In this document: in pieces, positions 3,561 through 41,549 of the stretch | Layout: each line of letters begins with the position of its first letter | How positions within the stretch are numbered: position 1 is the stretch's first letter | Assembly (NCBI RefSeq): GCF_900094805.1 | Contig: NZ_FMAT01000001.1 | Coordinates: forward strand, 372,001-436,000 | Origin: Arthrobacter sp. NIO-1057 | GTDB taxonomy: Bacteria > Actinomycetota > Actinomycetes > Actinomycetales > Micrococcaceae | DNA length: 64,000 bases | Direction: 5' to 3' | Position numbers and translations under genes: made by a program | Notes under the pieces: model-generated | What the model was told of the DNA's origin: nothing | Databases searched by the model: none | What the model saw: only the letters and a program-made list of their open reading frames with translations

Positions 3561-3584
3561 GGGATCAGGTCCTTTCAAAAAAAC

Positions 3585-25756: not shown

Positions 25757-25784
25757 AAGAACGAATTAGAGGAGAAGCTTCTAC

Positions 25785-26582: not shown

Positions 26583-26586
26583 TTCA

Positions 26587-27504
26587 GTGACCGAAATTCT
26601 CAATCCAGAACGGATTCTGCACGTCGAAGATCTCCAGGACTCGCGTCTTGATGAATATCTGAGGCTGTCGGAAGCCCACCTTCGGATGCGCACCGATGTT
26701 GAAAATGGCCTCTACATCGCCGAAAGCACCAAAGTTGTCCAGCGTGCTATCAACGCCGGCCATGTTCCTCGCAGTTTCCTTCTTGCTGAAAAGCATCTGG
26801 GTCAGTTGACCGAGGAATTCAATCGTTTCCCAACAGCACCCATTTTCATCGGCGATGACCGGCAGCTGGAGGATCTTGTCGGCTTCCACCTGCATCGCGG
26901 TGCCATGGCCGCGATGAATCGCCCCGAACCACTGGACTTGGACAAGGTGCTGGAGAACAGCTCCCGTATCGCAATCCTCGAAAAAATCGCGGATCACACC
27001 AATGTCAGGTGTTCCAAAATATCCGGAGTTCCTAAGGCTCTCGCTGAGCCGAAGCGCTCGCGCATCGCCGTGTTTGAGAACATTCAAGATCATACTAATC
27101 TTGGTGCGGCGTTCCGTAGTGCAGCGGCCATCGGAGTCGATGCAGTGTTGATTACGCCGCAGTGTGTGGATCCGCTGTATCGGCGGGCTGTTCGCGTATC
27201 CATGGGGACGGTCTTCCAAGTACCGTGGGCAAGGGTAGAGGCTTGGCCTGAAGGTATTGAACAGCTCCAAGATGCTGGCTTCATTGTCGCTGGCATGACC
27301 CTCGCGGAAGGTTCGATCACGCTGGACGAACTGGTTGCCGAGGATCATCAAAAACTTGCTTTGGTGTTCGGTAACGAAGGTCGCGGATTATCGGCTGAAA
27401 CAGAAGCAACGGTCGATCGCTGCGTCACGATTCCGATGATGGGCGGCGTTGACTCGCTGAACGTGGCGACCTCTGCGGCTGTTGCATTGTACGCGACAAG
27501 GTAG
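26587..27504 (+). CDS. SpoU/TrmH-type RNA 2'-O-methyltransferase, chimeric at an integration junction
   Basis: SPOUT-class methyltransferase for a tRNA or rRNA ribose, with an N-terminal substrate-binding domain and a knotted C-terminal domain (NLGAAFRSAAAIG, then LVFGNEGRGLS, then IPMMGGVDSLNVATSAAVALY). It is 305 residues rather than about 273. The segment 127-140 (RIAILEKIADHTNV) is repeated at 159-172 (RIAVFENIQDHTNL), so 32 residues are inserted at the first knot motif. Codons up to 27003 look native; from the repeat GTCAGGTGTTCC (27004-27015) onward the sequence belongs to the incoming island, and the native 3' end lies at 40592-41014. The frame stays open, so a product is likely; whether it works with the insertion is unknown. 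The start lies four bases after the permease stop. Confidence 0.85.
   Translation: MTEILNPERILHVEDLQDSRLDEYLRLSEAHLRMRTDVENGLYIAESTKVVQRAINAGHVPRSFLLAEKHLGQLTEEFNRFPTAPIFIGDDRQLEDLVGFHLHRGAMAAMNRPEPLDLDKVLENSSRIAILEKIADHTNVRCSKISGVPKALAEPKRSRIAVFENIQDHTNLGAAFRSAAAIGVDAVLITPQCVDPLYRRAVRVSMGTVFQVPWARVEAWPEGIEQLQDAGFIVAGMTLAEGSITLDELVAEDHQKLALVFGNEGRGLSAETEATVDRCVTIPMMGGVDSLNVATSAAVALYATR
27004..27015 (+). repeat. Island junction core, copy 1 (left end)
   Basis: GTCAGGTGTTCC preceded by CACCAAT, which encodes the native HTN of trmH; AAAA follows. This is the left boundary of the island, since upstream codons read as native TrmH. Confidence 0.75.
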
Positions 27505-27828
27505 GGCTTATTCGGACCAGTCGGTATGTGTCATCCGCCGGTTACGCCTAACTGCATCAAGACCCATGGCACCTCCTACAGCAAGACCTCTGCTTGAATT
27601 TTCCGACACGACCTTCACCCTAAGTTGAACTACACGTCCCCTACCGCGAAAACGCTCGTTCCTGAGGCCGACGTACTCGATACTTGGTTGAAGAGCGTGA
27701 GGATACCAGAATCAAGTTGATACGAGTAGAAACCGCGAAGAGCAACGAACTCGACATATTTCAGGCCAAGTATTTTTCGATTGGCGTGCGGTGACCGACG
27801 AAATTTTTAGGCCCAGGAACGGAGACGT
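27505..27828. other. Island spacer, no recognisable gene
   Basis: Sequence between the chimeric trmH and the ApeA-like gene. No frame longer than chance and no clear repeat was found. It probably carries the promoter of module A and perhaps remnants of an older element. Confidence 0.4.
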
Positions 27829-29157
27829 ATGCCGAACGAACTCAAAGTTGGAACACGCCGTGTCGGGGACTTCATCGACTTTTATCCAGACACCCCTGAA
27901 GTGAAGGTTACACTCGAGCGGTCGGAACGCGGCATCAACGTTACCCTGCCATGGTCCGATCCTGAGAGTCCGTACGCGCAATGGTTTACGGCAGGCCGCG
28001 GCCGGGAACAGATTTCTGCAGGCCCGGAACCACTTCCCGCGCCAAGGCGAGTTCTGTTTTATGACTCGCATGGATCCGTCCTCTTAATCCGATGCTGGCC
28101 GCGAGGATTCCATAGCAACATGATGGGGCCTGGTACCGGGCGGCTTTGGGCCCGCGCTGCGATCATGGGAGTACGTGAAAACCTAGAGTTCGAGCGTCCT
28201 CACGGAATGCAGACGGAGATATCGGGACTACGCGCTTGGTTGGGCATAACTTCGTGGCAGGAGACGGCAAGTTGGGGCACTGGTACTTATTCAGCTTCTC
28301 TAACGTCGCAATCTGTGTCCACAATCGAGGTGGGTGAGGTCAACGGAATGAGATTGTCGTTCCAGCCGAGCTGGCAGTTGGTGCCCGAAGAGGACCACGA
28401 TCGGCGTGTTGTTCTAGATCTTCTTCGGATCGTCACTAGAAGCGCGGAACCTCTTGACTGGGATCGACATCTTGATGTTCATCGCGCCATTCGCGACCTG
28501 CTCGTGCTTTCTCGTTGGCATGAAGAGTCTTGCGTTGTAGTTTTCGCACTTCGCTCTGATGATCCGATACGCACGATCGATAATAAGGAACACGGCGAAC
28601 AATGGCGTGCGGTCATCGTCGCCAAAGAGGACCGTGCCTCATTTCTGTCAAGACATCGACAGCATCTCGTTCAATATGATGAACTGCAGGTTCATGGGAT
28701 CGCTCGTTGGCTGAGAATACGTGACGAGTTTGCACGTGCATTGGACCCAGTTGTCAGCAGCATCGAATTACGTGGTACAACTGCGAACACTTTATTGGCG
28801 CATACAGGACCTGGGTTGGAAGCTCTTGGTTACTTACTAATGCTCCGAGATGGTGCTTCCGAAAAGTCAGCTACTCGAGCAAATCTGCGATCACGATTCG
28901 ACCGCATCCTCAAAGACGTCGGGGACGTCCTACCGTTCGAGGGGTCCACGTGGGCTAACGAGACTGTCGCTGCCTACAACGGCCTGAAGCATGCCAATAG
29001 GGCCGAACCGGCGGCAGTTGATGTACTTAACCTGTGGCGCGAGAGTGTGATGGTCGTACGGGCATGGGTAGCTTTGGAGCTCGGGGTGCCGTTCAACGAA
29101 GTAAAGGAGCGTCTGGCTGCAGACCCTCAACGAAATGGGTACATCAAGGTCGAATAG
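27829..29157 (+). CDS. ApeA-like protein with C-terminal HEPN-type domain
   Basis: 442 residues. The overall pattern (a beta-rich N-terminal half, GLRAWLG near residue 130, LDLLRIVTRSAEPL near 205, then a helical C-terminal domain) resembles the ApeA/Apea-like HEPN group, of which E. coli ApeA is an anti-phage protein. The helical domain ends in AAYNGLKHANRAEP; His388 would be the HEPN histidine, but the arginine of the usual Rx4-6H motif is not in place, so RNase activity is uncertain. ATG 27829 follows GGAGACGT. The downstream HNH gene begins about 200 bases later on the same strand, so the two may act together. Family call is from memory of the pattern, moderate confidence. Confidence 0.6.
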   Translation: MPNELKVGTRRVGDFIDFYPDTPEVKVTLERSERGINVTLPWSDPESPYAQWFTAGRGREQISAGPEPLPAPRRVLFYDSHGSVLLIRCWPRGFHSNMMGPGTGRLWARAAIMGVRENLEFERPHGMQTEISGLRAWLGITSWQETASWGTGTYSASLTSQSVSTIEVGEVNGMRLSFQPSWQLVPEEDHDRRVVLDLLRIVTRSAEPLDWDRHLDVHRAIRDLLVLSRWHEESCVVVFALRSDDPIRTIDNKEHGEQWRAVIVAKEDRASFLSRHRQHLVQYDELQVHGIARWLRIRDEFARALDPVVSSIELRGTTANTLLAHTGPGLEALGYLLMLRDGASEKSATRANLRSRFDRILKDVGDVLPFEGSTWANETVAAYNGLKHANRAEPAAVDVLNLWRESVMVVRAWVALELGVPFNEVKERLAADPQRNGYIKVE

Positions 29158-29358
29158 CTTGTGCTTTATAGCAAAGGCGACACCCCGAAATATGTACTGT
29201 TTGACCGGTGTTGTGTGCGTATTCAACCGCGAGTGATTTCTGCACCCCTAGGTCGCCGGTGTCTCACAGTGCGTCCGAGTCGATGCGTTGCTTCACAGGG
29301 CTCATACCGATTGACCTCCCGTGACTGGCGGTATGTGGTGTGGTGTAAGAATGAAGGT

Positions 29359-31026
29359 ATGACTGATTCTGCTTATCCGCTACCGAAACCCGCCATGATT
29401 CGAAAACTATATGGGTCGGCTTTTCGGTGCGCACATCCCGGCTGTAGTCGACCGTTGTACAAGGTCTCGGACGAGACAGGCGACCTCATACTTAATAGCC
29501 GTGTCGCCCACATCCATGCGAGGAGGAAGGGTGGTCCTCGTTGGGTAGAAATGCCAGCGGAACAGAACCGGGAGTTCGGCAATCTACTACTCCTATGCAT
29601 CGAACATTCTTATGAGATCGATGAGAATCCTGGTCCGTTCCCCGCCGAAGTTCTTCGAGAATGGAAAGCGGCACAGATCGCAGAGTATGAGCAGATTCAG
29701 AGAAGCTGGAACATCAGTGACGACGAGGCGTCTGAGGCTTTAGTCGCTTCTGAATCTATTGCCACGCTTCATATATCCTCTGTGGTGGAGGTCGTACGTC
29801 GCATTGAAGCCCTTGGATTGACCGCCCGGCGCACTCGCGGCCAAGTACGCGATTGGGCGAAGCGCTGGCAACAGTTGCGGGAGCGAACTCGTCGATCCTT
29901 CAGCGCATGGGATGAAGACGGTAACAGCGTGTACTTGGAACCGTCAATCAATGAAGTACGTCCGATAAAGGATGGCATTCAGTCCGCACTTGAGACCGCG
30001 CTTCATGAGATTCAGCCGGTGGCTGAAGCGGTTCGTGTCGAACTGGCGGCGGTTCGAACAACACGAGTTGAGACTGGTCCGTGGTGTGATGAGCTGGATC
30101 GCGTAATTACAGATGTGATCCATACGGCTTCAAAATGGGACGGGGGCCCAGATCACGGAGCAGACGCTAAGTTCGAGGGCGCGCTCAATAGACTCAATGA
30201 GACTCGGGACATGTTCGTCCGTGTAGTCAGAGGCGAATCGATCGAGTTACCTGAGCCAAGTGAATCCGTCAGCGATGCGAATGCTCCAGACGCTTTCGAC
30301 ATGCACCGGGCACTGCTCGATGAGGCGCGGCCCTATCATCGGGTCCAGCACCGGCCGTATGATGCCGATCTTCGTGAGCGTGTAGCGCAGGCAACTCAAG
30401 TAGCTGCACAGATTCCGCCGACTCCACATCTACTGGCCTACGGACTGAACGTCACTGCGGCTCTCTCGGTCGCGGTCGCAGGCAACGCTACCAGTGAAGT
30501 CCAAATTGATCTGGTGGAAAGTGACGCCAAACGAACCCCGATCTGTGCCGCGGTCGCGCTCCTTGAGGAGACCGCTCGACGTCATGACAAGGCTAGCGTC
30601 GTCGGTTCCGCGGCCGCTGAGCAGCTCCGTCGGGTTTGGGTGGATACAGATTGGGCAAAAGAATGCTCTTGGATCGGCAACGAAGTTAACGGACAGGCAA
30701 TGATGCACGCATTCGCTCGCGCAACCTCTGACGAGGAAGTGCGTGATCGACTCACTTCCGCTTTGGAGGCGAATCCCGGCTTGCTGGAAACCATGGTCAT
30801 TTCCTGTGCCGGATGGGTCGATCAACTCGATTCCGGAACTTGGGAAGTAGTTGATAGAGACCGTTCCTATCGAAGCGTCCCGTTGTGGTTTCCGATTGAA
30901 GTCGCCGGAGAGCTTGTACCCAGTCGGCACCCAGAGCTGAGCAGTTTTGATGTGGCGGAACTCCCGGAAAAGCTACTTCGTTGTACTCAGGAGCACTCGG
31001 AGTTGCCCGGGACACCCAAGCAGTAA
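29359..31026 (+). CDS. HNH endonuclease-like defence protein
   Basis: 555 residues. The N-terminal 95 residues form an HNH nuclease of the kind found in Cap5-like and other defence effectors: Cys24 and Cys29 (CAHPGC), His51 in VAHIHARRKGGPRW, Asn75 in FGNLLLLC, Cys80 and His83, then PAEVLREWKAAQIAEYEQ. The remaining 450 residues are mostly helical and unrecognised, and could be a sensor or oligomerisation part. I prefer ATG 29359 because the conserved region starts soon after; the frame is open from 29161, four bases beyond the ApeA-like stop. It likely cleaves DNA when activated (inference). Confidence 0.65.
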   Translation: MTDSAYPLPKPAMIRKLYGSAFRCAHPGCSRPLYKVSDETGDLILNSRVAHIHARRKGGPRWVEMPAEQNREFGNLLLLCIEHSYEIDENPGPFPAEVLREWKAAQIAEYEQIQRSWNISDDEASEALVASESIATLHISSVVEVVRRIEALGLTARRTRGQVRDWAKRWQQLRERTRRSFSAWDEDGNSVYLEPSINEVRPIKDGIQSALETALHEIQPVAEAVRVELAAVRTTRVETGPWCDELDRVITDVIHTASKWDGGPDHGADAKFEGALNRLNETRDMFVRVVRGESIELPEPSESVSDANAPDAFDMHRALLDEARPYHRVQHRPYDADLRERVAQATQVAAQIPPTPHLLAYGLNVTAALSVAVAGNATSEVQIDLVESDAKRTPICAAVALLEETARRHDKASVVGSAAAEQLRRVWVDTDWAKECSWIGNEVNGQAMMHAFARATSDEEVRDRLTSALEANPGLLETMVISCAGWVDQLDSGTWEVVDRDRSYRSVPLWFPIEVAGELVPSRHPELSSFDVAELPEKLLRCTQEHSELPGTPKQ

Positions 31027-31055
31027 CGTCCGCTCAGATCCCAAAATTCAATATG

Positions 31056-31067
31056 GTCAGGTGTTCC
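31056..31067 (+). repeat. Island junction core, copy 2
   Basis: An exact GTCAGGTGTTCC followed by AAAAA, 30 bases after the HNH stop. It is followed by the decayed trmH 3' end, so it marks the A/B module boundary. Confidence 0.75.
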
Positions 31068-31113
31068 AAAAATTCTGGTCGGTCTGCGCCTGGGATTTTT
31101 TCCATGCGTTCCG

Positions 31114-31560
31114 GCCTCGACCTGTTTGAGAACTTTCAAGATCCGACTGATCTTGGTGCGTTCCAGAGCGCTGTGACCATAGGTATCGACGCTGTATTGG
31201 ACATGTCTTAATGCATTGAGCCACGTTTCAAGCGGACAGTACGAGTATCTATATGCACGGTTACCAAAGTTCCGCGGGTAAGAATCGAGTCTCGGCCTGA
31301 AAACATTGAACAATTTCAAGATGCTGGACACATAGTGGTTGGCATGATCTTAGTGGAAAGTTCGATCTCGCTGGATCGACTGGTTGCGGAAGACCACTAG
31401 AATCTCGCGAAAGTATTCGGTAACGAAGGTTGCGAATAGACTACCGAAACAAAAGCGATGGGCAATCGCTGTGTTGCCGTTCCGATGATAGGCCGGCTGA
31501 ACTCCCTGAATGTGGTGACCTTTGCTGCCTTAGCATTGCATGCGACCTGGTTAGGACCAT
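31114..31560 (+). pseudogene. Decayed copy of the trmH 3' end
   Basis: Conceptual reading gives LFENFQDPTDLGAFQSAVTI, IGIDAVLDMS, then in shifting frames RVRIESRPENIEQFQDAG, VGMILVESSISLDRLVAEDH, KVFGNEG and NSLNVVTFAALAL. These track the C-terminal SPOUT domain of the gene at 26587, with several stops and frameshifts. It is far more diverged than the copy at 34548, so it is an older leftover of the same kind of event. Not translated as a functional enzyme. Confidence 0.85.
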
Positions 31561-31577
31561 TTATATGGGAAAGGACC

Positions 31578-32093
31578 TTACTCATTTCCATAGTCGGGCT
31601 CTCCCGAGAGTTGCTCGATGAAGTCATCATCTTCGACTTCGAACACTGGCTCAATTCCGGCAGCTACTAGGAGTTCGTATCCGTCCAATACGAGTTGGCA
31701 GTGACCACATACGAAGTAGTCGGCCGCCGCATCGGCAAGGCCCATGACCGTGTAATCGTCTTCGGAATATCCCGAAGTTTCGATCCGCATGTTTTCGACA
31801 TCTTCGGCCTCAAGCAGACCAAGTTTTCCGCAAGCAGGACATTCCTCACTCACCGAGAATCGGAGGCCTGCACGGAGTTCGAATTCGGCTTTCCAGCGCC
31901 CTAGCTGAGCAGTGGATAGTCGCCCAGAAGTCATTTCACCGTATCGCGTTTTTGCTCTACCAACCAGGGATTCTGCGCGCTCTGCGACGTATTTGTTGTT
32001 ATTCTGTAGATGGCCATCGACGATGTGAGTTCGTTTGTCTCCGACGAAATCTTCGATGCTCTTGTCTTGAGCATCAATAAGTGTGGAGGCCAA
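31578..32093 (-). pseudogene. 5'-truncated zinc-ribbon/HEPN-like gene
   Basis: The frame from TTG 32093 gives 171 residues with a zinc ribbon (CPACGKLGLL and, 45 residues on, CGHC). The same frame stays open upstream to 32288 with protein-like content, including FARNDYLHGSG, a good match to the HEPN RNxxxH motif, but it has no ATG, GTG or TTG there and meets the divergent gene at 32278. It therefore looks like a HEPN protein that has lost its N-terminus and start. A shorter product from TTG 32093 is possible but would lack the putative active site. Confidence 0.55.
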
Positions 32094-32277
32094 GCCCCAG
32101 AAGTCAGCCCACCATCGTTCTTCGGGGATGGTGCTGAAGGTTATTCCGCTACCATGCAGATAGTCGTTGCGGGCGAAGGCGAATATTTCGGCTTTTTTCT
32201 CGTCGAAGGGACCAAAGGCTCTTTTGCACCGGCGGTAGATCGTAGCGGCAGGGACTTGGTGTAAAGGAGCTCGAAAC

Positions 32278-33564
32278 GTGATTTCCCGTTATCACCTCGT
32301 TTGCCCTGGATGCGAAGAAAAGATCATCGCTCGCGTTGGTGCCGAGCCGACTAAGAGCACACGTTTTTACTTCCCTTGCCCGCATTGTCGTCTTCCGATC
32401 ACGGGATCAATGTCGGGAATTGAGCTGCACGAGCATCGCGTTGATTTCGATGCAGATGTATTGCCGTTCAACGAGGTGGAGTCCTCAGGTGCGAAAGTCG
32501 TGACGGTCAATCCCTTCGTGCCATCTGCCTACGACGCTGACTCATTCAATCCGTTCGGCTCGATGCCCACTCTGACGCTCGTTGGTCTTCTAAAAGACGA
32601 TGGGTTTATGTCGTTCAAATGGGAGCGTGACCATGCACAACAGGTTGTTGAGGAGAAATGGCCGAAGGTCAGGAGGTTGTTTCAGTACTATCTGCAGGAC
32701 AACCGGCCGATGTTCACCAAGTTTGCTGGTGATCTATTTGACCTAGATCGAAAACCAGCGACCGCACATGAACGAACTACAATTGCTTACCAAGCTTTGG
32801 CGTATGTTAGTCACGGGATGATCGGCGATACGGGGAGCCGTTCAGAGCAGATCTTCGGCCGATTCGCGAGAAAGCACACTGCTTCGATGAGGCGGGGCGA
32901 TCACATGCGTGTATTCCGCGCTCGTGGATCACTTTCGGCGACTTTGGAACGTGATGTGTTCACCGAACTTGGACGTTTTATTGACCGTTTTGAATCATGG
33001 GAAATGGGGCGGCTAACAAGATTCGTGGAATCCTCGGCCAAAGCTGAACTGGACTCGCTTGTGCTGTTTAGGGACGAGTTCTCGATCGTACGAGACCTAT
33101 TCCAGCAAGGGTTTGAACTCGCGTGCAAGTGTCTGTGGCCCCTTGTCGCCGCCCAAAACACCGTGAAGAGGAGGGACCCGCATGATTTCGGCGATGTTCA
33201 TCCGTCGGTCAGGGTTGTTCCGGTCAAACTAAGACCGAAAAATCTGTCGGATTTCGACAAGCTCTCGAACGCTCGCAAGATTGCGTACGTAGAGCTGGTC
33301 CCTGGCTGGGAAGCGCTTGTCGTCATGCTCGATAGCAAGCACCGTAATACGATCGGGCACGCCACAGCGCACCACGATCACCAAACTGGCCGGATCGTGA
33401 GTGACAAAGACCCGGACGGTGTCTCGTACATCGACTTCCTTGGGATGACCTTTGACGTCTTTGAGGCACTAGCGATTCTGACGCAAATACTGCGGGCAGC
33501 TCGTGTGGCTTCTTCGCCGGACTTTATCGGTGAGTGGACCAAAGAGGATCTCCCCGGGGCTTGA
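32278..33564 (+). CDS. Zinc-ribbon protein with HEPN-type motif
   Basis: 428 residues. The N-terminus is a zinc ribbon (CPGCEEK and CPHC, about 22 residues apart). A helical C-terminal region carries SKHRNTIGHATAHHD with Arg356 and His361, fitting the HEPN Rx4H RNase signature. GTG 32278 follows AAAGGAG closely. I do not recognise the full-length family; in a defence island an abortive-infection RNase is a reasonable inference. It faces away from the truncated HEPN-like gene at 31578-32093 and is followed by the resolvase-like gene on the other strand. Confidence 0.6.
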   Translation: MISRYHLVCPGCEEKIIARVGAEPTKSTRFYFPCPHCRLPITGSMSGIELHEHRVDFDADVLPFNEVESSGAKVVTVNPFVPSAYDADSFNPFGSMPTLTLVGLLKDDGFMSFKWERDHAQQVVEEKWPKVRRLFQYYLQDNRPMFTKFAGDLFDLDRKPATAHERTTIAYQALAYVSHGMIGDTGSRSEQIFGRFARKHTASMRRGDHMRVFRARGSLSATLERDVFTELGRFIDRFESWEMGRLTRFVESSAKAELDSLVLFRDEFSIVRDLFQQGFELACKCLWPLVAAQNTVKRRDPHDFGDVHPSVRVVPVKLRPKNLSDFDKLSNARKIAYVELVPGWEALVVMLDSKHRNTIGHATAHHDHQTGRIVSDKDPDGVSYIDFLGMTFDVFEALAILTQILRAARVASSPDFIGEWTKEDLPGA

Positions 33565-33706
33565 AGTCCCTAGTCACCCGCAGGTACTGCGTGGTGTCAA
33601 TGGGAAAGGAGAGTGCGTAGAATCCTTATGGCGTCACTTTGTGAAGCTGAAAGAACTTCGGGAAATGCCGACAGCTGACTGAAGTGCAGGTGCTCCGGGG
33701 GCCTCG

Positions 33707-34282
33707 TCACAAGCGTGCATCCCGCGTCATACCCTTGCGCAGTACCCCATGCACGCTACCGATGGACACGCCAACTTCCTGGGCAATCGCTCGCATCGAG
33801 TCTCCGGCAGCATGCCGCAGTTTGATCGTGCACTTCATATCTTCGTCGATGGAGACCGGGCGTCCGTGCTTTCTTCCTCGCTCGCGCGCTGCCGCGATGC
33901 CAGCTTTAACTCGCTGGCTCCGGAACTCTTGGCGAAGTAGGGTGAGTTCACGGAATAAGTTGAGGGCGGGGGAGTTCCGTGTGAATTCTCCGGCCGCAAT
34001 GCCGGTGAGAACTTTGACGGTGATTCCGCGGTCCACGATGTCGGTGAGGACTCCGACGCCATCATCGGTGTGTTGGGCGAGACTGCGGGCGCGGGTGACG
34101 ACGAGCATGTCGTCGGGGCCGACCTTGGTCAGTGCGGTGAGGAGTTCGGGGCGATTCTGCACGCGTCGTCGGCGGGATACCGGTTCCTCGACGATGTCTG
34201 AACAAAGGGGAGTCAGCGCTTCCCTCTGTAATCGAACATCGTCGGGGTCATCGCCAATGCGGAGGAGACCGATACGGGCCAT
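33707..34282 (-). CDS. Resolvase-fold protein lacking the catalytic serine
   Basis: About 191 residues, the size and domain order of small serine recombinases (resolvase/invertase): N-terminal catalytic fold, long helix (LLRQEFRSQRVKAGIAAARERGRKHGRP) and a C-terminal helix-turn-helix (SMRAIAQEVGVSIGSVHGVLRK). The expected R-V-S at the start is R-I-G here, so the nucleophile is glycine. The D-R-L-G-R segment reads R-S-L-A-Q, so both further arginines are absent. The protein should bind DNA but not cut it by the known mechanism. Start ATG 34282; a longer frame begins at 34309. It is the last gene of module B, facing the junction at 34499. Intact frame, so the loss is not obvious decay. Confidence 0.75.
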   Translation of the reverse strand: MARIGLLRIGDDPDDVRLQREALTPLCSDIVEEPVSRRRRVQNRPELLTALTKVGPDDMLVVTRARSLAQHTDDGVGVLTDIVDRGITVKVLTGIAAGEFTRNSPALNLFRELTLLRQEFRSQRVKAGIAAARERGRKHGRPVSIDEDMKCTIKLRHAAGDSMRAIAQEVGVSIGSVHGVLRKGMTRDARL

Positions 34283-34339
34283 TCTCAGTAGCACCCCTCC
34301 CGGTAGCAAGGTGCTGATAGAAGAGCGATGTGGTGCATG

Positions 34340-34353
34340 GGTTTATTGAACAC
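34340..34353 (-). promoter_or_regulatory. Conserved motif upstream of the first resolvase-like gene
   Basis: GGTTTATTGAACAC, 58 bases upstream of the gene start. The same motif with one change (GGTTTTTTGAACAC) precedes the second resolvase-like gene at 40438-40451. It may be a promoter element, an autoregulatory site or an end-recognition sequence. Confidence 0.5.
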
Positions 34354-34459
34354 CATGTAGGCCGCGTCGGCCACTGTTTAGGAACTATAACGCGGTGTGA
34401 CGTGTGGAAACATTTAGCGATCGTGATAACGAGCGGAAGATGATGGTCCCACTCAATGG

Positions 34460-34999
34460 GTGTGGATTATTGCGGAAGGGTTCATAACCATCGCCAACGT
34501 CAGGCGTTCCAAAAAATCCGGCGAGTCTACGACTTTCGCCGAGCCGAAGCGCTCGCGCATCGCCGTGTTTGAGAACATTCAAGATCATACTAATCTTGGT
34601 GCGGCGTTCCGTAGTGCAGCGGCCATCGGAGTCGATGCAGTGTTGATTACGCCGCAGTGTGTAGATCCGCTATACCGGCGGGCTGTTCGCGTATCCATGG
34701 GGACGGTCTTCCAAGTACCTTGGGCAAGAGTAGAAAGTTGGCCTGAAGGTATAGAGCAACTCCAAGACGCTGGATACATCGTCGCTGGCATGCCCCTCGC
34801 GGAAGGTTCGATCACGCTGGACGAACTGGTTGAGGAAGATCATCAGAAACTTGCGTTGGTATTCGGCAACGAAGGTCGCGGATTGAGCGCCGAAACTGAA
34901 GCAATGGTCGATCGCTGTGTCACGATTCCGATGATGGGCGGCGTTGACTCGCTGAACGTGGCGACTTCTGTTGCGGTGGCGTTGTACGCGACGCGGTGA
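34460..34999 (+). CDS. Stand-alone copy of the trmH C-terminal domain
   Basis: An open frame of 179 residues whose last 150 are nearly the same as the C-terminal SPOUT domain of the gene at 26587: identical from PKRSRIAVFENIQDHTN through VFQVPW, with about six substitutions after that. It lacks the N-terminal RNA-binding domain. Its first 30 residues come from junction sequence containing GTCAGGCGTTCC (34499-34510). By analogy it was once the repaired 3' end of trmH and was displaced by a later insertion. It may be silent or produce a domain able to bind AdoMet; no promoter is obvious. Confidence 0.7.
   Translation: MWIIAEGFITIANVRRSKKSGESTTFAEPKRSRIAVFENIQDHTNLGAAFRSAAAIGVDAVLITPQCVDPLYRRAVRVSMGTVFQVPWARVESWPEGIEQLQDAGYIVAGMPLAEGSITLDELVEEDHQKLALVFGNEGRGLSAETEAMVDRCVTIPMMGGVDSLNVATSVAVALYATR
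34499..34510 (+). repeat. Island junction core, copy 3
   Basis: GTCAGGCGTTCC (one change from copies 1 and 2), preceded by CGCCAAC, matching the CACCAAT of copy 1, and followed by AAAAAA. It marks the B/C module boundary. Confidence 0.72.
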
Positions 35000-35013
35000 G
35001 GAAGGATGCAGAA

Positions 35014-35325
35014 GTGAATACAGCGAGTCCGAAAGCGCCGTATCCTGCTGACTTCGTTGAGAATGCAACTCGCTGTAGTGAGCAGGGTGGTGGGTTCACA
35101 GAGTTTCTGGGATCAAGTGATGTCGTCCGATTACAGTGGCCGACCGACTTTGTTGAGCAATGGCTCTATGACCACGCGGGCAACCGGAAGTTCCTCACAG
35201 ATTACGGACACGTTGATCTTACTCAGATTGATTGTCGGGTGGAAACCTTGTCGGTGAAACTCCTGATCGAGATTCCTAGGGACCAGCCCGAATTTAACCA
35301 ACGACCAACTTCTCACTTGATTTAA
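35014..35325 (+). CDS. Hypothetical protein, possibly truncated
   Basis: About 103 residues with no family I recognise. GTG 35014 lies at a good distance from GAGGAAGGA; the frame is open from 34996, overlapping the trmH copy stop. Sequence is mixed hydrophilic with several tryptophans and tyrosines (DVVRLQWPTDFVEQWLYDH). The following 200 bases to the next gene hold nothing clear, so it could be the N-terminal remnant of a longer gene. Confidence 0.4.
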   Translation: MNTASPKAPYPADFVENATRCSEQGGGFTEFLGSSDVVRLQWPTDFVEQWLYDHAGNRKFLTDYGHVDLTQIDCRVETLSVKLLIEIPRDQPEFNQRPTSHLI

Positions 35326-35537
35326 CAAATTCCGCTTTACAGAGCGCCGTGTATGGAGACTACTTTGCGGCGTTGGTTTCGAGACGGCGGCCATGTTCTT
35401 CTGCTCTCCACGGCCCAACCTATCGGTCAGGAGGCTCGCTCCACCCCTACGATGCTCTGGCGAAATGACTGTTTAGATCTGAAAGTGGACTAGAATCAGG
35501 ACGAGAGCAGTCCTGCTCGGTCGAGGCTTACACCAAC

Positions 35538-36428
35538 TTGAAGACTGTTGGGTCCACGCCCGGTTCGTGGCAGGGATCAAGCGAGGCTGAGGAACAATTG
35601 ACAAGGGATACAAGGAAGGCTGCCGCCGTTCGAACCATCTCACGCTTCCTCCTGCGCGCACGGCTGGTTCAGGAGCATTCGCTGGCTGCCGACAGGGACA
35701 TCCTGGAAAAGCACGCTGCATGGACCATGTCCTTTCGCATCACCCAGAACCGGCACACCGGTCAGCGTTCGGTGGTGATGGTCCCTGCTCCCTTACTTCC
35801 CACCGAGCAGATTGAGTCAGCGGCCGCCCGGGTGCGTCCCGTCTTCCTGTCCGGCGATGGTGTGCATTACGACAAAGTGCTCAACGCGCTCGGAGAAGTT
35901 GCAACGTTTTCAGCGGGTTTGAAAAAGAACGTCGAAGTTTTGAGGGAGAAATTTCGAGCTGCAGACCCTGACTATCCGGATGGTCGCCCAACTGAGCCTC
36001 GAAGCGCATCGAGCATGACGAATAAGCAGGTCGCCGGAGCCTGGCTGTATGGTCATCTGCTGCATGAGGATGAGATGCGCCGCTCCTATGGCGCAGGTAT
36101 CAGCGCAGAGCAAATGCTCTTGTATGCAACAAAGACAGTCTGCAGCGAAATGCTGGCGACCGTTGAAGCCCTGCATTTGATAGAACGGATGGTAACCGAC
36201 GGATCGCTGGAAGTCGCTGAAGCCCTGTTCACTGAACCCATCAGTGTGACGGCAACCGAATGGGCCCCACAAATTGCCGGTGCTTACGTCGCTGACGTGG
36301 GAACGGCTATGCCGGAAAGCCTGACAGAACCTCTCGGCAACGAATGGAGCGAGGTTCACGAGCTTTTCGATTTCAACCCTCCCGTCACCGGTTCCGATGG
36401 TCCCTCTGAGACGGTTGACCCTACTTAA
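35538..36428 (+). CDS. Hypothetical island protein upstream of PD-(D/E)XK gene
   Basis: 296 residues, helical and charged, with no domain I recognise. Features are an N-terminal basic stretch, SFRITQNRHTGQRSVVMVPAP near residue 70, and an acidic C-terminal end. The start (TTG 35538) is uncertain; TTG 35598 follows a GAGG-rich stretch and is an alternative. A -10-like TAGAAT lies at about 35491-35496. The next gene on the same strand, a nuclease-like protein, begins 127 bases after its stop; they may form a two-gene system. Confidence 0.55.
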   Translation: MKTVGSTPGSWQGSSEAEEQLTRDTRKAAAVRTISRFLLRARLVQEHSLAADRDILEKHAAWTMSFRITQNRHTGQRSVVMVPAPLLPTEQIESAAARVRPVFLSGDGVHYDKVLNALGEVATFSAGLKKNVEVLREKFRAADPDYPDGRPTEPRSASSMTNKQVAGAWLYGHLLHEDEMRRSYGAGISAEQMLLYATKTVCSEMLATVEALHLIERMVTDGSLEVAEALFTEPISVTATEWAPQIAGAYVADVGTAMPESLTEPLGNEWSEVHELFDFNPPVTGSDGPSETVDPT

Positions 36429-36554
36429 TCATCGGTCTCTTGCACCCTTCCGGTTCCAGTCCAAGGGCGCGCTATGGCTTGCTACGTGTAGTTGCGCGTG
36501 GAAACTGCTTAGAGCGGATTGCCCCCTACCGCTGTCGCTTCATAATATTAGCTC

Positions 36555-38303
36555 ATGCCTACTTACGACTGGCCACTTATTCAGCAGCGAAGCGGCGACT
36601 CCATTGAGTCCCTTATTGCAACGCTCTTGCGCCGCGAATACAGCGACGCGCGGCAGGTAAATCCTTCACAGGGTGACGGCGGGATCGACATCCTCCGCGT
36701 AGCGGCCGACGGAATCGAAATCTGGCAGGTCAAGGGTTTCACGACGTCGATCTCCAACAGTCAATTCCGCCAGGTCAAGAACTCTTGGAAACGGTTCCTC
36801 GAGGAACACGTCGCGTCCGGTAAAAAGCGAATTATTCGATATCACCTGGTCACGCCATGGACACCTACCGAAGAGCGCGTCACGGTGTTCGACGAGCTCA
36901 CTGCAGACGCGGGATTTCCCTGCCAGTGGGACGGTGATGCCTTCATAGCTGGCTTGGCGGACCGCTTTCCCGAGACCATGCGGCGGTTTACCCATGGCGA
37001 GGCGGTGCTGGAACAGTTCATTAGCCAAAAAGCCATGCTCGCTTCCTCGCCGGTCGAACGAGGCGAATCGCTGAAGATGCTTGATGCCATCGAGACCAGG
37101 CAGGATGCCCTCAATGCTCTCCGCGATACGATCCACGACAACTACCGAATCGAGCATGGGACCCGAACTGTAACCAACAGTCAGGAAATTCCGCTGCCAC
37201 TCGATGATGACCCAGCAGTTTTTCATCGAATGACATACTTGGGAGACTCCCGCTGGAAATACGAATCCGTCGTGCCTCGCACGCCTGACGCCATGAAAAT
37301 CGATCCGATCGGCGCGGAGGTCGAGTTCATGACGACTCCCGGAACTCCCGAGCATGATGCAGTACGGGAATGGGCGGAGTGGGGTACTCCGTTCCAGGAT
37401 GTGCGGGTCAGGATGGCAACCACCGGTGGACCATTCGCTGACGAGGAAGCGGTGGAGTCGACGGTCTCCCTTATCGAGAGGAGCCGTGTAGACAGTGCCT
37501 CACTTTATCTGCGGTGTACTGAGATCAGTGGCCAGCGCCGATTCAGGATGCCACTGGTCGTCACATCTCAAACGACCGGTTCCGAAACAGGTTGGCTGCG
37601 TCTGGTTCTCGATACCCCGGAGCGATCACTCAACTTCGAGCTGCGCTTCAAGCAGGGGGAGGGTGCAGAAGCAAAGGTACAGATGGGAAACATCGATGGG
37701 CGTAACCCTGAGTCGGTCTGCGATGAGCTCGTGGAGCTGCTTGGCATTGGCGAGAGCGATGTCATTTCAGTGGAGACTGACGCGGGAAATGCGCTTCTCG
37801 GAGTACATGGTGCTGTCCTCCCCTCTGCCCTGGAGGCGCTCTATCTTCCCGTTGCCAGTCACCTGACTTTGCTTCAATCACATACGGCTCCCGCACTTGT
37901 AATGCCTTCGATCGCTGAAATCACCGACGATCAGTTCCGGCACCTCTCGCTCATTGCGGCCATCTATGGGGGTGTTCCTCATTGCTGGAACTGGAAGGAA
38001 CTGACACTCCAGGTTCCCGAGAGCGATACCGAGGCGGCATCCATTAGGGCCGTAGTCATCGATGCTATCGCCGGCCGCGGCACCATCGTGCAGGTGGAGA
38101 AGCCCGCCTTCACCCTCGGGAACCGGACCTACACCATCGATCACCCCCTCGCCAGTACTATGCACTCGGTCCAGCTCGAACGAGGCGTCGATCTTGAGGC
38201 GCTACAACCCGGGGAAACATTCAGGATCGTGCCCGGAACAGATGGCTCTGTTACAACGGCGAAGGTTGTCGATTGGACTCCCGGGAGCTTCCAGTTCGAC
38301 TAG
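36555..38303 (+). CDS. PD-(D/E)XK nuclease-like protein with large C-terminal region
   Basis: 582 residues. The first 120 residues match a restriction-endonuclease fold: SIESLIATLLRREYSDARQV, then GDGGIDI with Asp45, then IEIWQVKGF with Gln58 and Lys60, that is, the D-x(n)-QxK form of the PD-(D/E)XK motif, as in Mrr-like and DUF4297/Cap4-like nucleases. The remaining 450 residues are largely beta and unrecognised, perhaps a sensor. ATG 36555 is the first start; a -10-like TAATAT precedes it. In this island an effector DNase is the natural inference. Confidence 0.62.
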   Translation: MPTYDWPLIQQRSGDSIESLIATLLRREYSDARQVNPSQGDGGIDILRVAADGIEIWQVKGFTTSISNSQFRQVKNSWKRFLEEHVASGKKRIIRYHLVTPWTPTEERVTVFDELTADAGFPCQWDGDAFIAGLADRFPETMRRFTHGEAVLEQFISQKAMLASSPVERGESLKMLDAIETRQDALNALRDTIHDNYRIEHGTRTVTNSQEIPLPLDDDPAVFHRMTYLGDSRWKYESVVPRTPDAMKIDPIGAEVEFMTTPGTPEHDAVREWAEWGTPFQDVRVRMATTGGPFADEEAVESTVSLIERSRVDSASLYLRCTEISGQRRFRMPLVVTSQTTGSETGWLRLVLDTPERSLNFELRFKQGEGAEAKVQMGNIDGRNPESVCDELVELLGIGESDVISVETDAGNALLGVHGAVLPSALEALYLPVASHLTLLQSHTAPALVMPSIAEITDDQFRHLSLIAAIYGGVPHCWNWKELTLQVPESDTEAASIRAVVIDAIAGRGTIVQVEKPAFTLGNRTYTIDHPLASTMHSVQLERGVDLEALQPGETFRIVPGTDGSVTTAKVVDWTPGSFQFD

Positions 38304-38567
38304 GTCCCTACGAAACGTTGCGGTGAACAGGATGGTTGGCGAAGCCCATTAGGGTTTGGGGGTGTTTGGAAAGTGCAACTGTGCTGCGCTAGACGGGCCC
38401 GTATGTCGACTTCGTCTCTGTTCTCCTAGGTGAGACAGTCCGTCCACATGTCCGGGGCTATTGAGGGGCGCGCGATCGTGGATATGCCCGGAAGCATCTG
38501 AGGCCGCCCCTCTGATGATCGTTGGAGTGCTAATCATCGGTCCGAAGCGGACTGGCTTTGCGGCTGG

Positions 38568-39545
38568 TTACTTTTCATTCACCCGTTGTTGCGGCAGATG
38601 GACGACCACAATGCCAGCCACGTTCTCAGGCATTTCCGAGGCCAGGTGTTCGACGTCGATGGCCCCGGACATGACATCAATCACGTAACTTGGCGGTGCA
38701 TGCCTTAGAGGGGCAAGCGTGTAATCGAAATAGTTGATACCCCAGTGCCCAGTATCGGCGGGGAAGTCATTGAAGACGGGGCCGAGACGGTCATGCTCGC
38801 CTGAGCGAGGAGGGTTTACCGCGATCGTTGGAGCGGCTCCGAATACGCCGGCCCGTGCTCGCAGCACGCGGTCGATCATTTGGCGGGCAACTGCTCGAGT
38901 CCCGTCTTGCTCCTCGTTCAGAAATTCCGCGAGTTCAGGCGCAAGCTGAGGCCTGAGCGCCGGGATCAGCATTGACTCTGACTGCGGTGAATCCCAAAGA
39001 TCCTCGATGGCTACTGATCGCTCATACGTCGAAACGGCATCATTCACAATTAGCTGCTCGGCGAGAAGTTCCGGCATCAAGGAAACTGAGCGCTTGATGC
39101 ACTCGTAACAGCCCTCGTTCATATGGTTCTCACAACAGGGCTCCCACCCTCGATAGACTCCCGATCCCAGATAAAGCGCATAGACCGGCAATAGGTCAAG
39201 GGACTTTGCAGCGGATCTTAGGTTCTCGCGCTGCCGGCGCGTAGCGTGTTTCGATTGGTAATCGAATCCGAAACTCCACTCGGTTCCTGTCACGGTCACA
39301 CGTTTTGCCTGCACAAGCATTCCGTATGCGCCCATGGCATCGACCCACCACCAGACCCAGTCGGCACCGCTGAGAGCCTCGGCGCGCTGAGTGAACGGAA
39401 CGACGGTGACGCCACGTGCGGCCCGGGACACCACGATTTCAGTTATCGACGTCTCATTCCACCGTAAGCCGGCCTGTTCGCATGCGACCATATGTTGTTC
39501 AGCATCGCATCGGCTATCTCTGAACGCCTCTTCAACCGTCGCCAC
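38568..39545 (-). CDS. DUF6615-like putative PD-(D/E)XK nuclease
   Basis: About 325 residues. The N-terminal 85 residues carry NETSITEI, then E56, then SGADWVWWW with Asp62, then MLVQAKRV with Gln79, Lys81. This E...GADWxWW...QAKR arrangement is what I associate with DUF6615-type proteins and is compatible with a PD-(D/E)XK active site. A middle cysteine/histidine cluster (CCENHMNEGCYEC) may bind zinc. I chose GTG 39545 because GAAGG precedes it; ATG 39587 is possible but lacks a ribosome binding site. Minus strand, facing module C's other genes. Role in defence is inference. Confidence 0.55.
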   Translation of the reverse strand: MATVEEAFRDSRCDAEQHMVACEQAGLRWNETSITEIVVSRAARGVTVVPFTQRAEALSGADWVWWWVDAMGAYGMLVQAKRVTVTGTEWSFGFDYQSKHATRRQRENLRSAAKSLDLLPVYALYLGSGVYRGWEPCCENHMNEGCYECIKRSVSLMPELLAEQLIVNDAVSTYERSVAIEDLWDSPQSESMLIPALRPQLAPELAEFLNEEQDGTRAVARQMIDRVLRARAGVFGAAPTIAVNPPRSGEHDRLGPVFNDFPADTGHWGINYFDYTLAPLRHAPPSYVIDVMSGAIDVEHLASEMPENVAGIVVVHLPQQRVNEK

Positions 39546-39635
39546 AGCTCCACCTTCTTTCTTGCAGCAGGGAACACTGATCATCATACATATCGCCTAT
39601 CGGTTGGATCCTATCCGTTGGATTCCGTAATTCGC

Positions 39636-40345
39636 TTATAACAGCTGAGCGCGGCGAACGACTGTTCTATGCGGTAAACGTGTCCGCGAGATATTGCACA
39701 GCCGGTTGCCGTACTGGTAGTTACGCATCCTCCACCAGTGCATTTGGTGTACCGCGACTCCTGGGGAGATGCCGATCCTCCTCGCGGTCACCGCGATTTC
39801 ACGCTCACAAGACAGCCCCGAGAGCTCCCGTTGCCGAATAGGGTGTCCAGAGCAAACTTGTGAGCGGCCTTTTCACGGCGTGGCAGGATCATAGCGCGCT
39901 TTTCGTGGTCAATCACGCGAGGACGTTCGACGACGCTCCCACGCCGCTTTGCCAGTTTTAGACCAGTCTTGATTCGCCAGCTCAGCATGCTACGTCGAAG
40001 TTCAGCAATTTCTCGCCCAGCGTCCAAAATGGAAGAACGCTCGATATGAGTACTAGTGGCGGTGCCTTCGTGCACTTTGACCGCAACAGCCTGTTCAAAT
40101 AACTGGTTGAGCACATCGAGCCCGTCGATCATGGGCTGCGCCAGGTGGTTGACTTTCATGACCACGAGCGCATCATTTGGCCCCAGGTGGTCCAAGGTCG
40201 CCAGCAATTCTGGCCGATTCTTGATCAAGAGCCTTCTGCTTGTTGCTTTATCGAAGACTCGCGCGCAGATGAAATCCAGCGCGTCACGCTGGCGTTTAAT
40301 GTCGTGGACGTCGCTTGCCACTCGGATCAGACCTATGAGAGCCAT
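39636..40345 (-). pseudogene. Second resolvase-like gene, serine-less and frameshifted
   Basis: Homologous to the gene at 33707-34282. The uninterrupted frame covers 39788-40345. At the active site R-V-S is R-V-A, and D-R-L-G-R is N-H-L-A-Q, so nucleophile and arginines are again missing, with the same L-A-Q as the first protein. The helix-turn-helix is not in the main frame, but the +1 frame reads CEREIAVTARRIGISPGVAV down to a stop at 39636, which is a helix-turn-helix; a frameshift around 39850 separates the two. ATG 40345 is the conserved start, though an open frame continues to 40498. Confidence 0.7.
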
Positions 40346-40437
40346 CCTTAATGCACCGTCCACGAAACTTACCTTGGTCCCGTCCCAACGATACTTAGCT
40401 GGGATTTCCGGTCGCATTTTTAGTCTTCGACCGCATA

Positions 40438-40451
40438 GGTTTTTTGAACAC
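40438..40451 (-). promoter_or_regulatory. Conserved motif upstream of the second resolvase-like gene
   Basis: GGTTTTTTGAACAC, one base different from 34340-34353. Here GAACAC (40446-40451) is followed after seven bases by GTGTTC inside the junction core, making a GAACAC-N7-GTGTTC inverted repeat at the island's right end. Confidence 0.5.
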
Positions 40452-40453
40452 AG

Positions 40454-40465
40454 ATAAGGTGTTCC
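40454..40465 (+). repeat. Island junction core, copy 4 (right end)
   Basis: ATAAGGTGTTCC, sharing AGGTGTTCC with copies 1 and 2. It precedes the displaced native trmH 3' end by about 125 bases. Confidence 0.6.
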
Positions 40466-40501
40466 CGCTACGCCGATTTCCGCTCCGAGCCCTGCCACCG
40501 T

Positions 40502-41014
40502 ATGGGGAGACGTGGACTGCTTAAGCCTGCTATTGGAGTATCAACGACCAGGAGCGCACTCTCAGAGGGCTCCGAGCATATCGGGACACCGGCCAATTTG
40601 GGCGCCATCATTCGATCGGCCTCCGGGCTAGGTGTCGATGCCGTATTACTGACGCCCAAGTGCGTGGATCCTTGGTATCGACGCAGCGCACGCGTATCCA
40701 TGGGTACCGTATTTGATCTGCCTTGGGTTCGACTTGAAAGCTGGCCACAGGATTTGGACAAGCTCAAGTCGCATGGCTATGAACTGCTGGCCATGGAACT
40801 GACCGAGGATGCTGTGGCTTTGAATGATGTCCACCTCGCCCCGGGGCAGAAGGTTGCGATGATCCTCGGCAACGAAGGCAGGGGAGTAACCCAGGAAGCC
40901 TTGGGTGCCGTGGACCGAACGGTGATCATTCCGATGCATCGTGACGTCGATTCGCTCAACGTTGGTGCGGCAAGTGCAATCGCATTCTGGCATTTGTGTT
41001 CCGCCCCACGTTGA
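40502..41014 (+). pseudogene. Displaced native 3' end of trmH
   Basis: From residue 31 of the open frame (40592) the sequence is a TrmH C-terminal domain: ANLGAIIRSASGLGVDAVLL, VDPWYRRSARVSMGTVFDLPW, MILGNEGRGV and IPMHRDVDSLNVGAASAIAF. It differs clearly from the island copies and borders the core gene rpmE2, so it is best read as the original end of the gene beginning at 26587. Upstream codons (40502-40590) do not match the N-terminal domain. It has no start of its own that makes sense and is probably not functional alone. Confidence 0.8.
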
Positions 41015-41160
41015 GCTGGTTCTCCTGAGTGCTCAATGTGCGATAGGATGTAATGTCTGTGTTTTGCAGGTTCAGTAACGAATGTTGTACTGCACGGCGA
41101 ATTTCCGAGTAATTAGCTGCTGGCAAAATCCAGTGGCCATAAACATGAAGGTGTATAGCT

Positions 41161-41418
41161 ATGAAGGCTGATATCCATCCAAATTACGCCGCTGTGGTTT
41201 TCAACGACCTGGCATCCGGCGAAAAGATCCTGACCCGTTCGACCGCAACTTCGGACAAGACCATCGAGTGGGAAGACGGCAACACTTACCCAGTGATTGA
41301 CGTTGAAATCTCGGCTGCTTCGCACCCGTTCTACACCGGTAAGCAGCGCATCATGGACACCGCTGGTCGTGTCGAGCGCTTCAACGCCCGCTTCAAGGGC
41401 TTCGGCGGCAAGAAGTAA
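41161..41418 (+). CDS. rpmE2: 50S ribosomal protein L31 type B
   Basis: 85 residues starting [20 protein letters not shown] and ending [13 protein letters not shown]. It lacks the CxxC zinc pairs of L31 type A, so it is the zinc-independent form, which replaces the zinc form in ribosomes when zinc is scarce in many bacteria. In actinobacteria such genes are often under Zur control; I looked for a Zur-type palindrome upstream and found none convincing. A strong terminator follows. Confidence 0.95.
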
Positions 41419-41443
41419 TACTTCGCCCCTCGCAAGCTTTACA

Positions 41444-41484
41444 CGGCGTGTTTCCAGTTTTCTGGAAACACGCCGCTGCTGTTT
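41444..41484 (+). terminator. Terminator of rpmE2
   Basis: A perfect 14-base inverted repeat CGGCGTGTTTCCAG/CTGGAAACACGCCG with a TTTT-containing loop, followed by CTGCTGTTTT. Confidence 0.9.
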
Positions 41485-41549
41485 TAACTGCGTGGTGAGC
41501 TCTGCGATGGAGTGTCCAAGTGAAAGATGCGCAGGGATAGAATGAAAAC

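Follow-up and report, generated by a model that had tools for sequence, protein, structure and literature searches.

Here we describe a 13.6 kb insertion in the RNA methyltransferase gene trmH of Arthrobacter sp. NIO-1057, contained in a 64,000-nucleotide window of its 3.54 Mb genome (contig NZ_FMAT01000001.1, positions 372,001 to 436,000; G000:C3:372001-436000 in our numbering, where G000 is the strain's own genome, other genomes carry G numbers and fetched loci L numbers, and unprefixed coordinates are positions in the window). The insertion reads best as a tandem of two islands, each of which brings to trmH a linker and a complete foreign catalytic SPOUT domain at its left end and encodes near its right end a small resolvase-family protein that lacks the catalytic serine (hereafter, the Ser-less protein). 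Comparison of loci across the order establishes the insertion, the gene fusion, its recurrence and separate acquisition at the same site, the loss of the catalytic residues and a fixed geometry of the right end. Together, these data suggest, at about even odds (roughly 0.5), gene-repairing islands akin to the staphylococcal cassette chromosome (SCC) that are moved by a serine recombinase acting in trans, with the Ser-less protein as a partner binding the element ends.

Insertion and domain replacement at trmH

Among 18 genomes of the genus, probably Glutamicibacter, trmH is uninterrupted in 15 and carries inserts in three (G000, G015 and G016). Comparison with the empty-site sister G002 places the entry point of the 13.6 kb insert at the DHTN codons, as the first-pass annotation had proposed: by BLAST, the G002 locus aligns with 25087-27003 at 97.2% and then with 40593-42100 at 98.9%, breaking exactly there, with the two pieces overlapping by CCAAT. 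That annotation had also taken the trmH end lying 13.5 kb away, next to rpmE2, as the native one and as the continuation of 26587-27003, and both claims withstood the comparison, since 40592-41014 is no independent gene but shares 99.3% protein identity with the native end of G002. The SPOUT tree agrees, grouping displaced native ends with empty-site natives (the window's beside that of G002, G015's with G012 and G016's with G004). A relative of rpmE2 is present in 11 of the 16 regions searched, several of the remaining regions stopping too early to tell. The junction flanks show no donor tract relative to G002, with identities of 99.1% over 1305 upstream and 99.5% over 402 downstream bases; the 1817 upstream bases hold 37 differences, including two substitutions at -21 and -19 from the junction. 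Of these differences, 21 are packed into 120 bp (25189-25309) more than 1690 bases from the junction, as if at the end of a recombination tract.

The interrupted gene remains a single open frame (26587-27504) that joins the host 5' part, a linker and a complete SPOUT domain, with motif I doubled (IADHTNV, the linker, then RIAVFENIQDHTNLGAAFRSA) and an aligned insert of 32 residues relative to the native protein. The core GTCAGGTGTTCC occurs at 27004, at 31056 and, with one mismatch, at 34499 (0.37 occurrences expected; 1 of 100 shuffles reached three). Two further SPOUT copies do lie between the outer ends, one decayed and one intact as initially described: that at 31056-31550 has two TAG and one TAA stops, and that at 34499-34999 is open. 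Identity between the foreign ends and the native one is about 50%. G015 and G016 contain single elements, each consisting of a left end (core, linker and foreign SPOUT domain), cargo, a minus-strand resolvase-family gene and a right end joining the native trmH end. Because a similar right end abuts the next left end at 34496-34499, the window would hold two elements of this layout, at about 27003-34497 and 34498-40596, each with a foreign SPOUT domain behind the core at its left and a recombinase-family gene and right end at its right. As just two right ends are recognised, and no recognisable one precedes the copy at 31056, we infer that this decayed copy is a relic inside element 1 and not a third element. 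The earlier proposal of serial integration thus retains its abutting ends at 34496, with the order of events a reconstruction, and is reduced to two elements plus a relic rather than three. Likewise, the idea that each insertion carries a replacement trmH end is borne out insofar as the foreign end closes the frame, but what each such end supplies is an entire SPOUT domain, motif I included, and not a continuation of the host codons. Recurrence of the core at junctions elsewhere, set beforehand as a test, was found behind DHTN exactly in G015 and with one or two mismatches in G016, G023 and G386, and in a looser, GTSNGNGGTNCCAAA-like form in other genera and families.

The junction sequence is ACNAAY-GTC on the left side and CCAAY-native on the right, with AA at 21 of the 23 linker junctions read and a junction identity of 2-5 bp. 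In G015, GAAC on the left faces CAAT on the right and AA is the sole shared stretch, provided that no later mutation has intervened. Two shared bases fit a serine recombinase, the small members of which are marked by a 2-bp crossover such as the one deduced here, and are too few for homologous recombination; the insertion is very probably site-specific and of serine-recombinase type. Several elements further share a GGAACACC-like word between both arms in inverted order.

The element-borne end restores open frames of 305 amino acids in the window, 301 in G016 and 305 in G015. Between copies, the element SPOUT ends have ratios of nonsynonymous to synonymous substitution rates (dN/dS) of 0.15-0.22 (one copy, at 34499, being displaced), which argues that the fused TrmH is in use and suggests that it works. 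In a low-confidence structural model of the fusion, the SPOUT fold starts with the strand contributed by the element, and the host remnant and linker (residues 126-155) have a predicted local distance difference test score (pLDDT) below 50.

A profile of the linker plus SPOUT end gave full-length matches (from position 1 or 2) in at least 13 of 395 genomes of the family and at least 8 of 396 of the order, with G000 and G023 in both. Most of 24 further regions in 23 genomes were read for junctions, and linker junctions were found in families f1, f6, f11, f13, f17 and f19. In the SPOUT tree, from which 2 of 45 rows were left out (the displaced ends of G579, with no core match, and of G474, for its length), 33 element-type ends (21 with linker, 8 without and 4 displaced) form one clade (support 100/99) that excludes the Glutamicibacter natives and a further four displaced ends. 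Linker-less foreign-type ends, seen in some genomes, may be old fixed insertions or the genus-native state. In G023 (L035), a linker-less trmH is followed by two more SPOUT ends about 6 and 9 kb downstream, and the compared SPOUT part of the first end equals the second in protein. Scanning contigs with two peptide patterns returned the locus of G. nicotianae and, in a metagenome-assembled genome of Clostridia, a match of 54%; two such patterns found nothing for the SPOUT end in viral contigs.

Among the three Glutamicibacter carriers, synonymous divergence (dS) is 1.1-1.7 for the host trmH 5' parts and 1.1-2.5 for the native ends, versus 0.16-0.33 for the element SPOUT ends and 0.13-0.25 for the recombinase genes. 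The flank tree does not place the carriers as sisters and pairs the own genome with empty G002. The younger elements in non-sister hosts point to separate gains at the same site.

The Ser-less protein and its site geometry

The first-pass annotation had seen no active recombinase; it overlooked the recombinase-family gene at the right end of each element (33707-34282 and 39788-40345), which has lost its catalytic residues. Both products match Pfam Resolvase (2.8e-11 and 9.3e-13), and HTH_58 is found on the first alone, at the cut-off, in keeping with the Resolvase domain and C-terminal helix-turn-helix of small serine recombinases; the best Foldseek matches are Tn3, Sin and gamma-delta resolvases (E-values of 1.6e-4 to 1.2e-2, template modelling scores of 0.27-0.52). 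The catalytic serine and DRxxR signature of that group are missing, however. In all six aligned proteins (the two of the window and those of G015, G441, G474 and G579) the RVS position reads RIG, RIG, RVA, RLT, QVG or RVG, and the EVDRLGR of relatives is replaced by RARSLAQ, RARRLAQ, KVNHLAQ, KVRYLAQ, HARSLST or RARSLST, the catalytic positions being S10, D67, R68 and R71 in gamma-delta resolvase numbering. The NRP arginine never varies, and the serine of the SRRR loop hardly does. These six proteins form one clade (support 98/95, with G016 left out), and the G016 copy shows the same losses.

Across 396 genomes of the order (E-value up to 1e-24), homologues occur at 21 places in 17 genomes, 5 of them Ser-less and 16 other; a SPOUT end lies within 1.5 kb of 5/5 Ser-less copies vs. 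0/16 of the other relatives. The serine is visible in 13 of these 16, and the remaining three are cut before its position yet keep DRLGR. The nearest relatives found are Tn3-type resolvases of Micrococcales, about 33-48% identical and with the same domain order, which unlike the Ser-less proteins keep RVST and DRLGR, and none of the 16 sits at trmH; two that were fetched adjoin open reading frames (ORFs) of about 1030 amino acids resembling Tn3 transposase by eye. A class sample of 345 (E-value 1e-40) returned the own genome, G441 and one relative retaining the serine. Identity is at most 29% against 50,697 phage records, at most 35% against viral contigs and at most 41% for homologues in plasmids, phages and viral contigs together. 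The elements being younger than their hosts, their spread would have come after loss of the serine. In G474 and G579, which belong to different families, the Ser-less genes are 95% identical (dN 0.031, dS 0.11, dN/dS 0.28) over host trmH genes of 67% identity, indicating that the protein stayed intact when the gene recently crossed from one family to another.

All seven Ser-less elements have a 13-bp motif, GGTTTATTGAACA with zero or one mismatch, whose start precedes the right AA by 156, 157, 156, 156, 156, 158 and 158 bp, whereas its distance to the start codon of the Ser-less gene varies (58-93). These seven cases represent about four independent lineages, the three Glutamicibacter copies and the G474/G579 pair being closely related. 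At ten right ends lacking a Ser-less gene (four of which represent one restriction-modification, R-M, element), the closest sequence within 400 bp differs from it at five or six positions; among random 400-bp windows of carrier loci, which can include the motif itself, 73 of 3000 hold it with zero or one mismatch. A decayed element in G452 retains the motif. The geometry recalls that of resolvases, which have accessory sites at a defined spacing from the crossover. An inverted repeat, GAACAC-N7-GTGTTC (40446-40464), overlaps the end of the element 2 motif. In G015 (L033:3756-4493) and G016 (L034:5306-6043), a 245-amino-acid protein is encoded beside the recombinase-family gene; the G016 copy has no Pfam or PADLOC match, and tblastn found no relative in the window locus.

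The R-M element just mentioned, 8.1-9.2 kb long with hsdM, mrr, hsdS and hsdR (Pfam names from G430) and matching ends, occurs in four families (G430, G539, G437 and G316). Its four copies are 89-99% identical outside the variable hsdS part and have an hsdR dS of 0.04-0.33; the trmH 5' parts of the hosts share 56-64% identity, measured for G316 across only 43 codons. A small-recombinase profile run against six-frame translations found no resolvase homologue in these four elements, and with E-values up to 1 none in G118, G386, G370, G275, G316, G411, G225, G390, G252, G242, G412, G023, G430, G539, G437, G500, G580 and G699; apart from remnants in G074 and G452, it gave a single insignificant match (0.89), in G696. 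Pfam likewise recognised no recombinase in six ORFs of the G430 element, five of G370 and the few scanned of G118, G242, G441, G474 and G579, the remaining cargo being mostly judged by eye, and no tyrosine integrase was noticed in the part of the cargo ORFs of trmH islands that was family-scanned. When plasmids were searched with the R-M element, only stretches of it matched, at 74-78%, and in three cases these lay on hsd genes. Since these elements spread without a resolvase homologue, mobility may not need a cis-encoded enzyme: either the reaction can be served in trans, or the elements descend from carriers that brought the enzyme and then lost it. Within them, the hsdS stretch (about element position 3130-4110) is mostly unalignable among L143, L149, L150 and L108, pointing to exchange of target-recognition parts, and a 123-amino-acid ORF (L143:8892-9260 and homologues), 97-99% identical and with no Pfam match, lies next to the right end of all four.

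Proposed mechanism and competing explanations

We propose that the islands use motif I of trmH as their attachment site, where serine-recombinase-type strand exchange at the AA dinucleotide would fuse the host N-terminal domain to the island's linker and catalytic SPOUT domain and push the old end downstream; a second island could then enter the rebuilt junction in the same way. The Ser-less homologues would contact both the right end and the site about 157 bp further in, cutting neither but helping to shape the complex or to set the direction of the reaction. To this non-catalytic role we assign slightly better than an even chance; the cutting enzyme would come in trans. Several points weigh against this model. 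AA is absent at two of the 23 linker junctions (the dinucleotide is GA in G390, and the decayed copy in the window reads ambiguously), and ungapped symmetry of the putative attP is modest, with 46 of 117 positions over nine elements vs. 34.4 in shuffles, 43 of 5000 of which scored as high. The 13-bp motif could be a promoter or operator, the Glutamicibacter Ser-less copies are under mild constraint (dN/dS 0.44-0.65), and the gene of G016 (L034:6332-6901) has two in-frame stops. The structural models are weak (pLDDT of 70 for the recombinase and 64 for the fused TrmH). The search for a trans partner identified none, the own genome having one other Resolvase-domain protein, in a 473-amino-acid frame with the look of a large serine integrase. 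The G016 element with the stopped Ser-less gene is recent and joins trmH in frame. The Resolvase-domain protein at G000:C10:60514-60951 is a possible trans partner or a separate prophage gene; a common large serine integrase in this role was not borne out, as just one of three frames was recovered.

Other roles for the Ser-less protein can be set against these data. Were it a transcription regulator of its own operon and of the defence cargo, with mobility left to unrelated enzymes, the position of the motif upstream of its gene would be accounted for, as would the run of hsdM, hsdS and hsdR behind it on the same strand in G441 and G474 and, in G579, the truncated hsdM and, past inserted genes, hsdR; we nonetheless consider this unlikely, as the motif holds a constant distance from the crossover (156-158) while that to the start codon varies (58-93), and the neighbouring genes differ among the window, G015 and G016. 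Catalysis through another residue, for instance the conserved SRRR-loop serine or an acidic residue as nucleophile or acid-base group, would explain why the protein is tied to trmH sites, right ends and a fixed-spacing motif and why it spread between families after serine loss at a dN/dS of 0.28 with its NRP arginine invariant and its loop serine nearly so; replacement of the serine and of all DRLGR residues in 6/6 proteins, and the spread of elements lacking the gene altogether, make it quite improbable. A broader claim, that the Ser-less clade directs gene-repairing trmH integration of defence islands across Micrococcales, whether through a novel active-site chemistry or by providing the targeting part of a split recombinase that receives its catalytic part from the host or another element, seems to us tentative and rather doubtful.

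Explanations that dispense with site-specific movement fare less well. Decayed copies and the lack of a recognised active recombinase in cis could mark the islands as immobile relics spread between species by homologous recombination of the trmH region, and the 21 of 37 upstream differences from G002 that cluster far from the junction indicate that tracts here do recombine. Against such transfer, carrier flanks match the empty-site sister up to the junction, bar the two substitutions at -19 and -21, and host trmH genes of carriers share 56-85% DNA identity vs. 86-99% for shared element parts, leaving it only a slim chance. Several SPOUT ends in one locus could also result if trmH had been duplicated in tandem and had then acquired cargo between its copies, but we give this next to no credence: foreign and native ends share about 50% identity, the foreign ones form their own clade across families, junction identity is limited to 2-5 bp, and the empty site and the tree contradict it.

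Cargo and relation to known systems

By family and profile matches, the cargo is of defence type, with ApeA-like, HNH-effector-like and restriction-like proteins in the window (Table 1) and type I R-M genes elsewhere; the G015 cargo resembles a type I R-M set by eye, and that of G016 includes an Mrr_cat protein. In G370 (L106), the 14 kb between two trmH ends holds ApeA and Mrr_cat proteins, the same defence kinds as in the window. A scan of 26500-41200 with Rfam gave no match at gathering scores, and a plasmid search with 27004-40590 gave no match.

Table 1. Coordinates of the two elements and their trmH flanks in the window.
Feature	Position	Strand	Basis
Host trmH 5' part: N-terminal domain plus the beginning of the first SPOUT strand, up to DHTN	26587..27003	+	99.3% protein identity to G002 trmH
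Putative left crossover dinucleotide AA in codons ACC AAT	27001..27002	+	Occupied and empty sites compared
Element 1 left end: core GTCAGGTGTTCC, linker, complete foreign SPOUT domain closing the trmH frame	27004..27504	+	
ApeA-like protein, element 1 cargo	27829..29157	+	Pfam ApeA_NTD1 1.9e-14; HEPN_Apea 7e-5, just below cut-off; no PADLOC match
HNH-type endonuclease-like protein, element 1 cargo, start codon uncertain	29161..31026	+	PADLOC PDC-M68A 6.4e-19 and endonuclease effectors; no Pfam match
Decayed SPOUT end with core, probable relic in element 1	31056..31550	+	Two TAG, one TAA
Cargo ORF	32278..33564	+	No family match in Pfam or PADLOC
Ser-less resolvase-family protein, element 1: RIGDD for RVST, RARSLAQ for DRLGR region	33707..34282	-	Pfam Resolvase 2.8e-11; alignment; tree
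13-bp motif GGTTTATTGAACA, 156 bp from crossover	34340..34352	+	
AA where element 1 right end meets element 2 left end	34496..34497	+	84-88% identity with the right-end regions of G016 and G015
Element 2 left end: core with one mismatch, intact SPOUT domain, displaced	34499..34999	+	
Restriction-endonuclease-like protein, element 2 cargo	36555..38303	+	Weak PADLOC Avs2 2.6e-6, LmuA 9.3e-4; no Pfam match
DUF6615-like protein, element 2 cargo	38568..39587	-	Pfam 4.6e-5, just below curated cut-off
Ser-less resolvase-family protein, element 2: RVASD, KVNHLAQ	39788..40345	-	Pfam Resolvase 9.3e-13
13-bp motif with one mismatch, 157 bp from crossover	40438..40450	+	
Putative right crossover AA	40595..40596	+	
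Native trmH 3' end, displaced	40592..41014	+	99.3% protein identity to G002; adjacent tree position
rpmE2, native downstream neighbour	41161..41418	+	Name from the first-pass annotation

RlmH, the target of SCC, is itself a SPOUT enzyme, and SCC forms tandem arrays. The trmH islands share with SCC and the Enterococcus cassette chromosome (ECC) a variable content and a methyltransferase gene as target. Those cassettes insert at the 3' end of rlmH by means of the large serine recombinases CcrAB, whereas the islands described here enter mid-gene, at motif I of a SpoU-family gene, and replace the whole catalytic domain, and the sole recombinase-family gene seen in them is small and Ser-less or is absent; in the own genome, the only Resolvase-domain matches inside the island are the two small ones, neither of them ccr-like. 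One report on SCCmec and ECC describes islands of variable content that use the methyltransferase gene rlmH as attachment site, with serine recombinases and dyad-symmetric att sites (PMC6222049). Integrase islands and phages in icd and other genes carry in attP a replacement sequence that keeps the target gene functional (PMC10111431); there the replacement is an identity block, in contrast to the about 50% protein identity, the linker and the 2-5 bp of shared DNA at trmH. In Mycobacterium abscessus, a prophage is predicted in a SpoU-like gene, the same target gene family, but at the sixth codon, and the paper calls reconstitution of expression unclear (PMC10654092). We recognised no report of trmH islands or of Ser-less recombinases of this kind in the open-access PMC literature. 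The overall strategy resembles SCC and gene-repairing islands, and the surprising part is the Ser-less clade with its fixed sites.

The integration strategy described here swaps the whole catalytic domain of a conserved RNA methyltransferase, and its occurrence in six families of one order makes trmH look like a hotspot for defence islands. The replaced domains at the same time constitute a set of natural TrmH chimeras. It is also important to note that the Ser-less clade offers a natural case of a recombinase family that has lost its nucleophile while still being linked to recombination sites at fixed geometry, thus making it a testable question whether integration can proceed with a serine-recombinase architecture devoid of its serine or with a serine supplied from elsewhere.

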